From assembly GCF_026341775.1 (NCBI RefSeq), contig NZ_JAPEOB010000001.1, positions 1,612,001 to 1,676,000 on the forward strand: 64,000 bases of DNA. Direction: 5' to 3'. Under the pieces are notes generated by a model. That model was not told where the DNA came from, searched no databases, and saw only the letters and a list, made by a program, of their open reading frames with translations. This document shows, in pieces, positions 22,903-27,777 of the stretch. The stretch comes from Streptomyces sp. NBC_00654. Its GTDB lineage: Bacteria; Actinomycetota; Actinomycetes; Streptomycetales; Streptomycetaceae. The position numbers and the translations under genes were made by a program. Within the stretch, counting starts at the first letter, position 1; every line of letters begins with the position of its first letter.

Positions 22903-24933
22903 TTGAGTCGTGAAACTGACAGTTCGTCCTCCGGGCCCCAGGGGCGCGGCGGAGCCGCGTACCCGTCGGGTACGCCGCCGTACGGATCCCGCCAGTATCC
23001 GTCGCAGGACGGTCCGGGCGAGGCCCCGGACCCTGCGGACCCGCCCCGGCCCGAGGAACCCAGAACCGAGACGACGCTGACGACGCGTATCCGGATCAAC
23101 ATCCCCGGTTCGCGCCCCATCCCGCCGGTCGTGATGCGTACGCCGATGGGCGAGGGCGACACCTCCGGCGGCCGTCCCGAGTCCGAGCGCACGGGCAGCT
23201 CCGTGCGTCCCGGCACGCTCCCGCCCGGGTTCGCGCCCGCGGCGGACGGCGCGGGCTCCGGCGGGCCGGACCCGGAGGCGCGGGACGGCGCCGCCGAGCC
23301 GCCCGCCGCCAGGCCGGGCAAGGAGAAGAGCGGCAGCGACTGGTTCGCCCCGCGCAAGACCCCGACGACCACCTCGGTGGCCGGCCCCGCCGGAGCCGGT
23401 ACGGGGGCCGGGGCCACCCCGCCCCGTGCCGACCTGCCGTACTTCTCGGACGGCCCGCAGCCCGGCGGCAGCGCCCTGGACGAGTTCGGCGACCGGGCTC
23501 CCGGCGGGGGCCCCAGGGCCACGCCGAACCTCGGGGTGCGCACCCCGGGCCCGTCCGGTCCCACCACGGGTCCGGCCACCGGCAGTTCGTTCCTGACCCC
23601 CGACCTCGGGGGAGTCCACGGCATCGGCGGCCCGGCGGGCTCCGGTCCGTCGGGGCCGGGCGGTCCCGGTGCCCCGGGCCCCGGTGGGCCCGGTCCGATG
23701 GTGCCCGGTGCCCCCGGCGGTGTACCGCCGCGGATGTCGGACGACACCGCGATACTGACCCCGCAGGCCCCGGCCCCCGAGCCCGGCCCCGGCGGCCATG
23801 TCTCCGGTAACACGCTCACCAGCGGCATCCCCGTCGTGCCGAGCGAGCCCCGCTCGTCGTTCCCGAGCCGGCCCGGCGGAGCCGACGGCACGGGACCGGG
23901 CCCGATGGGCAGCGGACCCGCCGGTGCGTCCGTCCCGGCGCCCGGACCCGCCGCCCGCCCGGCCCCGAAGGCCGCGCCCGCCAAGAAGGGCCGCTCCAAG
24001 CTGGTCCTGCTCGGCGCGGGTGCCGTCGTGCTGCTCGGTGTCGCGTACGGCGCGGGGCTCGTGATGAACCACTCCGAGGTTCCCAAGGGCACCACGGTGC
24101 TCGGCGTCGACATCGGCGGCGGCACGAAGGAGGAGGCGGTCGGCACGCTCGAAGCCGCCCTCGGCAAGCGTGCCCAGGCTCCCCTCCAGCTGTCCGTGGA
24201 CGGCAAGAAGGAGACGCTCGTCCCGGAGAAGGCCGGTCTCACCCTGGACAGCCAGGCGACCGTGCGTGCTGCCGCGGGCAGCGACTACAACCCGGTCTCG
24301 GTGATCGGTTCCCTGTTCGGCGGCGAGCGTCCGGCCGACCCGGTGATCCCGGTCGACGAGGAGAAGCTCGGGGTCGCGCTGACCGACCTGGCGGGCGTCT
24401 CCGGCTCCGCGACCGAGGGCACGATCAAGTTCGAGCCGTACAAGGCCGTCGCCGTACCGGGCAAGGCGGGCAAGGCGCTGGACGTCAACCAGTCCCTGAT
24501 CTCCGTGCGGGACGCCTACCGGGCCCAGGTGCAGACCGGGAAGGCGGGCGTCGTCGAACTGCCCGTCGCCACGCACGAACCCACCATCACCCAGGCCGAA
24601 CTGGACCGGGCGATGAAGGAGTTCGCCAAGCCCGCGATGTCCGGTCTGATCCTCATCAAGGCCGGTCCCAAGCAGATCCTGTTCGGCCCGGCGAAGTCCC
24701 TGCCGAAGATCCTGTCCATGAAGGCGATCGACGGCCGGCTCGTCGACCACTACGACAAGCAGGCCATCGACACCCTGTGCGACGGAGTCTTCGACGGTGT
24801 CATGGCGGTCAAGGGCGACGGCAAGAAGCACCAGGTCAGCGCGGACGACGTGGCCCAGGCCATCAAGACCGCACTGGCGGGGAAGACCGCGGCCGAGCGC
24901 ACCGTCACGATCGATCTGACGGGCCAGGGCTGA
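22903..24933 (+). CDS. Membrane-anchored peptidoglycan-binding-domain protein (PG_binding_4 type)
   Basis: A 676-aa single-pass protein. Residues 1 to about 360 are a disordered Gly/Pro/Ser-rich cytoplasmic region. A membrane helix follows at about 367-387 ('LVLLGAGAVVLLGVAYGAGL'). The extracytoplasmic part has two repeats of the putative peptidoglycan-binding domain seen in YoaR/VanW and L,D-transpeptidase proteins ('GTTVLGVDIGG', then 'FEPYKAVAVPGKAGKALDVN'). No VanW or transpeptidase catalytic domain follows, so it may be a wall-binding scaffold (inference). TTG 22903 is preceded by GGGAGA and starts 'SRETDSSSSG'; no ATG or GTG nearby fits better. Confidence 0.85.
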   Translation: MSRETDSSSSGPQGRGGAAYPSGTPPYGSRQYPSQDGPGEAPDPADPPRPEEPRTETTLTTRIRINIPGSRPIPPVVMRTPMGEGDTSGGRPESERTGSSVRPGTLPPGFAPAADGAGSGGPDPEARDGAAEPPAARPGKEKSGSDWFAPRKTPTTTSVAGPAGAGTGAGATPPRADLPYFSDGPQPGGSALDEFGDRAPGGGPRATPNLGVRTPGPSGPTTGPATGSSFLTPDLGGVHGIGGPAGSGPSGPGGPGAPGPGGPGPMVPGAPGGVPPRMSDDTAILTPQAPAPEPGPGGHVSGNTLTSGIPVVPSEPRSSFPSRPGGADGTGPGPMGSGPAGASVPAPGPAARPAPKAAPAKKGRSKLVLLGAGAVVLLGVAYGAGLVMNHSEVPKGTTVLGVDIGGGTKEEAVGTLEAALGKRAQAPLQLSVDGKKETLVPEKAGLTLDSQATVRAAAGSDYNPVSVIGSLFGGERPADPVIPVDEEKLGVALTDLAGVSGSATEGTIKFEPYKAVAVPGKAGKALDVNQSLISVRDAYRAQVQTGKAGVVELPVATHEPTITQAELDRAMKEFAKPAMSGLILIKAGPKQILFGPAKSLPKILSMKAIDGRLVDHYDKQAIDTLCDGVFDGVMAVKGDGKKHQVSADDVAQAIKTALAGKTAAERTVTIDLTGQG

Positions 24934-24979
24934 CCGGCCGCCGCCCGTAAGCACCCGCGTACGCACCCGCGCACACGCC

Positions 24980-25013
24980 CCGCCCCCGGCCGGAACCCTC
25001 CGGCCGGGGGCGG
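24980..25013 (+). terminator. Terminator after the peptidoglycan-binding-protein gene
   Basis: A 14-bp perfect stem (CCGCCCCCGGCCGG, 24980-24993 with 25000-25013) and a 6-nt loop, 46 bases after the stop codon. Confidence 0.75.
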
Positions 25014-25025
25014 CGTCGTACGCCC

Positions 25026-25053
25026 GTCATCGGCCCGGCATGACATCTGTCAT
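25026..25053. promoter_or_regulatory. Palindrome ATGACA-TC-TGTCAT plus extra half-site
   Basis: ATGACATCTGTCAT (25040-25053) is a 14-bp inverted repeat with a 2-base centre. A third half-site GTCAT lies at 25026-25030. It resembles dyad operators of NarL-type response regulators that control ABC-2 exporter operons (for example DesR in Bacillus; general resemblance only). It stands directly upstream of the ABC/response-regulator remnant that starts at 25063. Confidence 0.5.
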
Positions 25054-25062
25054 CCCACATTT

Positions 25063-25803
25063 ACGACCCTCGATCTGCTCCTCGGGCTGCGCACCCCCGA
25101 CTCCGGTACGGTCCGGCTCTTCGGCACCGGCCCCCGGGAGGCGATCGTCGCGGGCCGGGTCGGCGCGATGCTCCAGAGCGGCGGCCTGATGGAGGACGTC
25201 ACCGTCGGGGAACTGGTCCGCCTCGTCCGCGGGCTGCACCCCAGGCCGTATCCGGTGGACGAGGTGCTCGCCAGGGCCGGGATCGCACAGATCGCCGGAC
25301 GGATGGTCAACAAGCTCTCCGGCGGCCAGGAACAGCGCGTACGGTTCGCGCTCGCCACCGCCGGGGACAGCGATCTGATCGTCCTCGACGAGCCGACGAC
25401 CGGCATGGACGTCACCGCCCGCCAGGCCTTCTGGGCCACCATGCGCGAGCAGGCGGGCCAGGGCCGTACCGTCCTGTTCGCCACCCACTACCTCGAAGAG
25501 GCCGACGCGATCGCGGACCGTGTCCTCGTCCTGCACAAGGGCCGCCTCCTCGCCGACGGCAGCGCGAGGTGGCCGCCCAGGTCGCCCGCGGTGACGAGGT
25601 TCTGGCCGCCGCCCGCGAACACCGACCGCGAGCGCGATGTGCTGCGCGCGGCGGCCGACGGCTCCACCAACGCGGAGATCGCGAGCGCGCTGCACCTCTC
25701 GCAGGGGACCGTGCGCAACTACCTCTCCACGGCCATCCAGAAGATGGTGGCCCGCAACCGGGCGGAAGCCGTCCGGATCGCCCGCGAGAAGGGCTGGCTG
25801 TAG
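25063..25803 (+). pseudogene. Fused remnant: ABC exporter ATPase fragment joined to NarL-type HTH
   Basis: The frame opens abruptly at 'TTLDLLLGLRTPDSGTVRLFG', the sequence that follows the Walker A lysine in ABC-2 exporter ATPases. The first ~40 codons, including the start and the P-loop glycines, are gone and no start codon is available upstream. The signature 'KLSGGQEQRVRFALA', Walker B 'LIVLDEPTTGMD' and switch 'LFATHYLEEAD' are intact. At about 25560-25615 the ATPase breaks off, and the frame continues as 'DRERDVLRAAADGSTNAEIASALHLSQGTVRNYL' through 'REKGWL', the LuxR-type HTH end of a response regulator. The rest of the ATPase, the permease, the kinase and the receiver domain are missing. 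A short product from ATG 25168 is possible but could not be a working ATPase. Confidence 0.85.
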
Positions 25804-25831
25804 CGGGCGGGCGACGGGCCGTCCGGGCGGC

Positions 25832-26494
25832 TCACCGGCCGGTGGCCGACACCAGCCCCGCCTCGTAAGCGATGATCACCAGCCGCACCCGGTCCCGGGC
25901 GTCCAGCTTGGTGAGCAGCCGGGACAGATACGTCTTCGCGGTGGCGACGCTGATGTTCAGCCGCTCGGCGATCTCGGTGTTGGACAGACCGTTCCCGACC
26001 AGGGTCAGCACCTCGCGCTCGCGCTCGGTGACCGCGGAGAGCGGCCGCGCGGCAGGCGACGGTGCGGCCGGGCGTCCGGCGAAGTCCTTGATCAGACGGC
26101 GGGTGACGCTCGGCGAGATCAGGGCGTCCCCGGCGGCGACGACCCGGATCGCGGCGAGGATGCCGTCCAGCGCCATGTCCTTGACCAGGAAGCCGGACGC
26201 ACCGGCGCGCAGGGCCCCGTAGACGTACTCGTCGTCGTCGAACGTCGTCAGGACGACGACCTGCGCGGCCGTGGGGCCCCCGGTGATCAGGGAGGTCGCC
26301 TCGATGCCGTCCATGCCCGGCATCCGGATGTCCATCACCACGACATCGGGGCGCAGTTCGGCGGTCAGCCGGACCGCCTCCGCACCCGTACCGGCCTCAC
26401 CGACGACCTCGACGTCGGGGGTGCCGGTGATGACCATGTTCAGCGCGGCCCGTACGAGCGGCTGGTCGTCGGCGAGGACGACACGGACGCTCAT
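25832..26494 (-). CDS. NarL/FixJ-family response regulator
   Basis: A 220-aa response regulator. Receiver domain: acidic pair 'LADDQPLVR' (residues 9-10), phospho-acceptor Asp55 in 'VVMDIRMPG', conserved 'VVVLTTFDDDEYVYGALRAGASGFLVKD'. A linker follows, then a LuxR-type HTH ('LTEREREVL'-like 'VTEREREVLTLVGNGLSNTEIAERLNIS...VKTYLSRLLTKL'). Its start overlaps the kinase stop by 4 bp, so the pair is co-translated. It presumably controls the divergent ABC exporter genes at 27903-29668. Confidence 0.94.
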   Translation of the reverse strand: MSVRVVLADDQPLVRAALNMVITGTPDVEVVGEAGTGAEAVRLTAELRPDVVVMDIRMPGMDGIEATSLITGGPTAAQVVVLTTFDDDEYVYGALRAGASGFLVKDMALDGILAAIRVVAAGDALISPSVTRRLIKDFAGRPAAPSPAARPLSAVTEREREVLTLVGNGLSNTEIAERLNISVATAKTYLSRLLTKLDARDRVRLVIIAYEAGLVSATGR

Positions 26495-27777
26495 CGTCCG
26501 GCCCCCGCCGGTACCGGCAGCCGGACCGCGACCCGGAAGCCGCCCGAGGGGACCGGCGCGGCGCTGAACTCGCCCTTCAGCAGCGCCACCCGCTCCCGCA
26601 TGCCGACCAGGCCGAATCCGCTCTCCGGCGAACTCCCGCCGCCCCGGCCGCTGTCGGTGATCTCGATGGCCAGCTCCTCGGCGCCGTAGCCGACGGACAC
26701 CCGGCAGGAGCCGGTGGCCGCGTGCCGCACCACGTTGGTGACCGACTCCTGGATGATCCGGAACGCCGACAGGTCGATGTCCGGCGGCAGCGGCCGCCGC
26801 TCACCGTGCCACCGCACGTCCACCCGGACCCCGGCGCCGGTCGTCGCCGCGGCCAGCCGCTCGACGTCCGCGAGGCCCTCGGCGGGCCGCGACGGTGCCG
26901 GTCCGTCCCGCCGTACGTCCGCGTGGGGCTCCGGTACTCGCCGGGGACCGGCGGCGGGCTCAGGCACCAGCCCCTGCCCGTCCGCCGGTTCGGGCTGCCG
27001 CAGGGCGACGAGCATCCGGCGCAGCCCAGCCAGCGTCTCCCGCCCGGCCAGTTCCACCACCGTCATCGCCTCGCGCGCCGCGTCGGGCCGGGTGTCGACG
27101 ACCCGGGCCGCCGCACCGGCCTGAAGGGCGATGATGCCGATGCTGTGCGCGACGCTGTCGTGCATCTCGCGGGCGATCCGCAGCCGTTCGGCGGTGACCG
27201 CCTGCGCCGCCGCGCGGGCCGTCAGCTCCCGTGCGTACTCGCGTGTCCGGCGCACCGACAGCCCGGCCAGACAGGCGATCACCGACAGCAGGGTGAAGGT
27301 CTCCCAGGAGGTCCAGCTCGTGTCGGCGCTGTGCGGGAACCGCAGGGGCAGGCCCAGCAGGGAGCGCAGCAGCGCATGGCCGGGCAGCGCCGCGACGGTC
27401 AGGACGAAGGCGGGCGCCCAGGTGCGGCGCGGCCGGGTCGCCACGATGACGCCGAGCGCGATGTCCAGGGCCAGATGGTGGAGGAACGCGAGCCCCACCG
27501 AGTCCACCGCCAGCGCGGCCCCGAGCGAGCCGGTGACCAGCAGGGCGAGCGCGGCCAGGGGCCGCGTGGACAGCCGTCCGCAGCCCGTCAGCGCCAGGAG
27601 GGCGGCCGCCGCCAGGAGCAGCCAGTCCCCGGCGTCCAGAAGGCGGACGCCCTGCGGCATCCCCGGAATCCCGAACTGCGCACGGATCGAGGAGAGTGTG
27701 GCGGCGCACCACAGGAAGGCCGCCCAGGCGGCCGGCGACAGCCGGTTGAGCAGCGGGAGGGACGGCTTCGTGGGCAT
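26491..27777 (-). CDS. Sensor histidine kinase, HPK7/DesK-like (HisKA_3)
   Basis: A 428-aa kinase. About five hydrophobic segments (residues 15-130 and 160-176) form the sensor. The dimerisation helix follows with phospho-accepting His206 in 'RIAREMHDSVAHSIG'. After a variable Pro/Ala-rich linker comes the HATPase domain ('ESVTNVVRHA', 'DSGRGGGSSPESGFGLVGMRERV'). Partner of the response regulator with which it overlaps by 4 bp. I chose ATG 27777 (MPTKPSLPLLNRLS). Another ATG at 27813 is in frame and cannot be excluded. Confidence 0.9.
   Translation of the reverse strand: MPTKPSLPLLNRLSPAAWAAFLWCAATLSSIRAQFGIPGMPQGVRLLDAGDWLLLAAAALLALTGCGRLSTRPLAALALLVTGSLGAALAVDSVGLAFLHHLALDIALGVIVATRPRRTWAPAFVLTVAALPGHALLRSLLGLPLRFPHSADTSWTSWETFTLLSVIACLAGLSVRRTREYARELTARAAAQAVTAERLRIAREMHDSVAHSIGIIALQAGAAARVVDTRPDAAREAMTVVELAGRETLAGLRRMLVALRQPEPADGQGLVPEPAAGPRRVPEPHADVRRDGPAPSRPAEGLADVERLAAATTGAGVRVDVRWHGERRPLPPDIDLSAFRIIQESVTNVVRHAATGSCRVSVGYGAEELAIEITDSGRGGGSSPESGFGLVGMRERVALLKGEFSAAPVPSGGFRVAVRLPVPAGAGR

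Follow-up and report, generated by a model that had tools for sequence, protein, structure and literature searches.

Between positions 25063 and 25803 on the forward strand of Streptomyces sp. NBC_00654 DNA (numbered within the window, the whole 64,000-nt stretch that was analysed), one open frame carries part of an ABC exporter ATPase followed by the DNA-binding helix-turn-helix (HTH) of a response regulator. Is this a gene, perhaps one that still supplies a DNA-binding protein, or is it the scar of something larger? A sequence-only reading had taken it for the scar of a four-gene operon (ATPase, permease, kinase, and regulator) and had added that the surviving HTH might be made as a decoy. 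Comparison with related genomes identifies the operon from which the scar derives, and the locus is very probably a recent, lineage-specific pseudogene produced by multiple deletions.

Three deletions in an exporter operon

In the sister genome (G019), the same flanking sequences enclose a complete operon at the same place, encoding an ATPase (318 aa), a permease (251 aa), a histidine kinase (394 aa, start approximate), and a response regulator (203 aa), with Pfam matches to ABC_tran, ABC2_membrane, HisKA_3, Response_reg, and GerE. Aligned to this locus (L032, our reference for the deletion sizes), the window shows three collinear deletions of 236, 2302, and 287 bp in the Blast blocks, for a total loss of approximately 2.8 kb; the sequence-only reading had expected a normal locus about 3 kb longer and at least two deletions, and the actual number is three. 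All junctions are given on the forward strand. The first (25066..25067, AC shared) lies between blocks at window 25067/L032 2457 and window 25066/L032 2692, and its 236 bp held the presumed promoter core, the start codon, and ATPase residues 1-63 including Walker A. The second (25565..25565, 1 nt shared; blocks end at L032 3191 and start at L032 5493) removed the 2302 bp that held the end of the ATPase, the permease, the kinase, and the start of the regulator. The third (25621..25624, ACCG shared; blocks end at L032 5552 and start at L032 5836) removed, in 287 bp, the remaining receiver including the phospho-acceptor region. Junction homologies this short (2, 1, and 4 nt) would fit end joining as the maker of the deletions. 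The lengths of deletions 2 and 3 add up to a multiple of three, which brings the HTH back into the ATPase reading frame; the chance of the frame being kept across these two junctions together is one in three.

What remains at the locus consists, in order, of ATPase residues 64 to approximately 230 (25066..25565; 93.0% DNA identity over 500 bp to L032 2692-3191), a 60-bp scrap of the receiver domain that lies off its original frame in the fused ORF (25565..25624; 96.7% identity to L032 5493-5552), and a NarL/DesR-type HTH with its native stop (25621..25803; regulator residues 144-203, with 98% amino-acid identity to G019). The net result is in frame, as had been claimed from the sequence, and it is the bridge at 25565-25624 that departs from that description, being receiver sequence read out of frame. 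The fused ORF matches ABC_tran (51.4 bits, from profile position 26 of 137) and GerE (59.1 bits, cut-off 23.5), with no Pfam match to Response_reg. Set against the intact operon, the ATPase part starts at T64, just past the Walker A GKS(S), in agreement with the sequence-only reading; Walker A (the P-loop) is absent, and the translation retains LSGGQEQR and LIVLDEPT, which we take to be the ABC signature motif and Walker B, respectively. With regulators of the DesR/NarL family the scar shares a LuxR-type HTH (the GerE domain) with native stop, and JGI names its relatives DesR; it differs from them in that the receiver with its phospho-acceptor Asp is gone (the region removed by deletion 3), save for the out-of-frame 60-bp scrap.

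The frame is open from 24934, and between the preceding stop and ATG 25168 there is no in-frame ATG, GTG, or TTG, so that the ATPase indeed has no start codon of its own. The longest fusion frame with a usual start codon (25168..25803, forward strand, 211 aa) begins at that ATG, an internal ATPase codon, and is probably not a gene. By eye, no clear Shine-Dalgarno-like stretch is present in the 20 nt before ATG 25168 or in front of GTG 25591 and GTG 25639; GTG 25711 is preceded by AGGGG, but is located within the HTH. An unbroken frame does not by itself point to a gene here: one other forward frame and one reverse frame of the same 741-bp span are likewise free of stops, and so are 322 of 1710 247-codon stretches sampled on the window's forward strand.

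The first genome comparison covered the window genome (G000) and 40 others (41 in total), including 24 congeners. Alignment with other genomes, the check that the sequence-only reading had proposed for Streptomyces, recovers the full four-gene locus in G019. Of 38 loci compared outside the window, 32 have the complete set of four genes by tblastn, a proportion that is no frequency because the loci were mostly picked via an ATPase or regulator match. In 27 of these 32, a match to the same upstream gene lies no more than 500 bp away. The remaining six loci are L123, L154, and L156-L159; at L156-L159, the operon is absent behind the same upstream gene. The locus in the window thus carries lineage-specific disabling lesions against intact orthologues at the same place. 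Among the 24 congeners, 14 match the ATPase over approximately 500 bp with a DNA identity of 78% or more (one of them a genome only 79% complete). The best matches of the other ten are weaker, which suggests that the genus can do without the operon.

Other rearrangements were seen in the same comparison. At L123 (7840-9623, genome G081), kinase and regulator are kept at the syntenic place, where a search for the two transporter genes gave no match, and at L154 (9846-10569, genome G010), the permease match is split into three overlapping parts, which looks like the result of frameshifts. The sister genome also has a scar of its own, in the neighbouring two-component pair that is intact in the window: approximately 1.2 kb is gone (L032 6180 is the partner of both 25927 and 27118 of the window, so that window 25928-27117 is missing), joining the end of the regulator to the middle of the kinase gene. 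The region erodes differently in the two sisters.

A known system that resembles the intact form is the AbrA1/A2 operon of Streptomyces coelicolor (SCO1742-1745), for which PMC4193843 describes an ABC ATPase, a permease, a histidine kinase, and a response regulator, and an operon promoter under positive autoregulation. The G019 operon has the same four kinds of gene; at the window locus the operon is broken, and permease and kinase are absent. Because the scar operon sits downstream of mshB (found farther upstream in the window, and presumably SCO5126 in S. coelicolor), it is probably a separate operon of similar type.

The putative operator and promoter layout of the lost operon

Upstream of the first junction, the palindrome ATGACATCTGTCAT (25040..25053, no strand assigned) survives and is exact. 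It is the putative operator of the lost operon's own regulator, and a site of this kind is conserved in relatives. With up to 2 mismatches allowed, the window contains no other match to it; its weight lies in its exactness and conservation, because one match or more at that tolerance also turns up in 35 of 100 shuffles. Across 113 loci (some species entering twice), a TGACA-(2 or 3 nt)-TGTCA site stands upstream of the related ATPase in 89, the misses including distant relatives such as Kribbella. The conserved operator-like site is consistent with autoregulation by the response regulator.

Promoter rows aligned on the site (103 loci tried, yielding 80 distinct rows that have it) share further elements at fixed distances. 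The first occurrence of CTGCC falls exactly at offset 35 in 74 of the 80 rows (shuffles: mean 1.2, maximum 6, over a wider span), and an ATG with an A..T block before it falls at offset 71-73 in 68 of the 80, a count made without shuffle control. In the intact layout, seen at L032 2431-2505 and the aligned loci, the operator is followed by CTGCC at +35 and ATG at approximately +72. Such a fixed arrangement suggests a conserved activator-dependent promoter of a leaderless message; among the top-ranked literature matches, we recognised no paper on a fixed operator/CTGCC/ATG layout. The alignment of the scar locus thereby led to a promoter layout that is common to a paralogous operon of the same genome (see below).

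Seven columns between offsets 12 and 26 are conserved in 70% of the rows or more; the window matches 6 of them, after which ATPase codons follow. Lost to deletion 1 are CTGCC, the -10-like block, and the native ATG, blocks that would make up the promoter core. Since CTGCC and the ATG were taken, the promoter as read here is not intact, and the description of an undamaged promoter palindrome applies to the operator only. A scan of 24900-25900, of a kind that covers only some Streptomyces promoters, returned no sigma-70-like promoter and no terminator.

Uniqueness and age of the fusion

The search for the fusion elsewhere extended, for junction 1, to the 41 genomes of the first comparison and, for junctions 2 and 3, to 392 Streptomyces genomes. 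Among the matches listed from the 392, G000 alone matches 25480-25760 contiguously (508 bits, with the next genome at 226 bits); the listed matches from other genomes cover the ATPase end or the regulator end, never both, and a few at the regulator end extend, less identical, another 13-18 bases into the receiver scrap. Among the matches listed, a fusion joined at these points was found neither in the other genomes of the 392 nor in the protein collection, and these matches likewise show no sign of the same fused gene conserved in distant species, the observation that the sequence-only reading had named as the mark of a real protein. Among plasmids, 132 records match part of 24940-25830 and none covers 80% of it. 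Literature searches on DesR/pseudogene, the operator sequence, leaderless/palindrome operons, and ATPase-regulator fusions brought up no paper on this locus that we recognised among the top-ranked matches.

At the protein level, both domains occurred together only in P0001, from Actinacidiphila glaucinigra, among the best 120 of at least 7923 proteins (8000 candidates scored). This protein shares the joining point in the ATPase to within a few codons and has a different one in the regulator; it keeps Walker A and lacks the phospho-acceptor part. Because five other A. glaucinigra records have a separate regulator (99% identical over the compared part), the P0001 fusion also looks like a recent deletion. 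Two further ATPase-response regulator fusions with different joining points came to light, P0142 (JGI, on a 1.9-kb contig) and P0147 (with a complete regulator); no frequency of such fusions among deletions follows from these counts, since the searches were aimed at that combination.

To place the decay in time, substitutions in ATPase codons 64-229 and HTH codons 146-203 were polarised with seven other genomes. The window branch carries 8 nonsynonymous and 19 synonymous changes and the G019 branch 6 and 9, with 3 ambiguous; these counts reject neutrality over the whole window branch (P = 2.9e-6, on simple site counts without mutation bias). Within the HTH, the window branch shows 1 nonsynonymous and 5 synonymous changes, and both differences in the receiver scrap are synonymous in the original regulator frame, as would be expected of a gene that worked until recently. 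Relaxed selection, a possible proof of pseudogene status, was thus not found in the window branch; the ratio instead bounds the age of the lesions. If the remnant is dead, the neutral part would be at most approximately 11-26% of the branch (one-sided 5% bounds, for a background omega of 0.25 to 0.10). The dN/dS check suggested by the sequence-only reading therefore leaves two explanations for the low ratio, recent decay and continued constraint, of which recent decay is favoured because the start codon and the presumed promoter have been lost.

We therefore place high confidence in recent, lineage-specific loss. An ancestral operon of operator, ATPase, ABC-2 permease, histidine kinase, and DesR/NarL-type regulator, as still present in G019, would have lost its start with the presumed promoter core, its middle, and most of the receiver, through three short-homology deletions in whichever order or through one complex event, and what remains is presumably not expressed. 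Two things count against this reading: the substitution ratio squeezes three deletions into that last part of the branch, and the net frame was kept. Similar losses recur, with no transporter at L123, no operon at L156-L159, and the fusion in A. glaucinigra. Deletion pseudogenes are an ordinary kind of bacterial sequence, and the scar shares with them its short-homology junctions, its lost start, and its lack of conservation in the searched material; it differs in having three deletions with junctions within 0.6 kb and a frame accidentally restored. By itself it is one more ordinary pseudogene, and its use is comparative, as a detailed view of how an exporter/two-component operon common in Streptomyces is lost piece by piece.

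Could the surviving HTH act elsewhere?

The decoy proposed from the sequence does not hold up in its original form. Its start, ATG 25168, is the internal ATPase codon noted above, and its supposed target, the adjacent two-component system (system 2), is not supported: the system 2 regulator in the window (RR2) is only 38% identical to the regulator of the lost operon (RR1), the recognition-helix region differs, and the window holds no second operator within two mismatches.

A better candidate target lies at a distance. The window genome has an ATPase-permease operon (system 3) at C2:2303781-2305655 (L172 5782-7656) with the same operator and promoter layout, the operator being followed by CTGCC at offset 35 and ATG at offset 72 (counted by hand). 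In G000 there is neither kinase nor regulator beside it; in G019 the kinase is present, and no regulator lies within the 14 kb fetched. Six system 3 loci were compared from five other congeners. In all but L180, which has no such regulator, one that is 64-66% identical to RR1 lies approximately 5 kb or less from the kinase. With the system 3 regulator (RR3) as query, the best match in G019 is RR1 itself, at 67%.

It is conceivable, though we consider it highly improbable, that the HTH is still made without its receiver and that it binds both the scar operator and this distant exporter operon, where it would regulate constitutively or compete for the site. G000 has two perfect ATGACANNTGTCAT sites, one at the scar and one at C2:2303781; the best other regulators found there reach only 54% identity to RR1 and 51% to RR3; the HTH remnant is 68% identical to the system 3 HTH of G015; and its near identity to the G019 domain and its mostly synonymous changes, given above, would suit a protein in use. 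Against this stand the deletion of the presumed promoter core and start codon, the lack of a sigma-70-like promoter in the scan described above, and the lack of a clear Shine-Dalgarno sequence before any of ATG 25168, GTG 25591, and GTG 25639, and the low substitution ratio is equally expected from very recent decay. If the HTH acted at all, the C2 operon would be its likeliest target, given the shared operator and the absence of any close regulator found. The fuller proposition, that the receiver-less HTH is the only close DNA-binding partner of this regulator-less operon and that the scar has turned it into a constitutive trans regulator, strikes us as slightly less credible still. An exact ATGAC[AG]NN[TC]GTCAT site was found in none of the six system 3 loci of the other congeners, which offer partial sites at best; in this comparison, a close match to the operator is thus confined to G000 and G019; the partial sites would count against a general shared regulon, and the trans-acting proposal concerns the two exact sites of G000.

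Compared with recent loss of the operon, an assembly artefact concealing an intact operon in the real chromosome is also very unlikely: no second genome with the same junctions appeared among the matches listed from the 392 searched, as an artefact would predict, but three collinear gaps, a 60-bp island, and 1-4 nt of homology are unlike repeat collapse, and the scar lies inside a 4.7-Mb contig. The three other fused proteins (P0001, P0142, and P0147) speak for the fusion as a real, recurrent architecture, an ATPase-tethered DNA-binding domain. This reading can practically be dismissed, since they join at different regulator points and each stands alone in its sequence cluster, P0001 is without the phospho-acceptor part and five other records of its species are unfused, and the window copy has no Walker A.

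Apart from the fate of the scar, which we continue to read as recent decay, the distant operon offers a natural case of an exporter operon that has retained its operator in a genome where the search revealed no close regulator. Its ATPase and permease look maintained, with omega values against G019 of 0.34 and 0.20, respectively. The distant ATPase starts with a repeated GTAA peptide tract (MRKTTGTAAGTAAGTAAG..., L172 5855-5940) that lies outside the alignment to G019.
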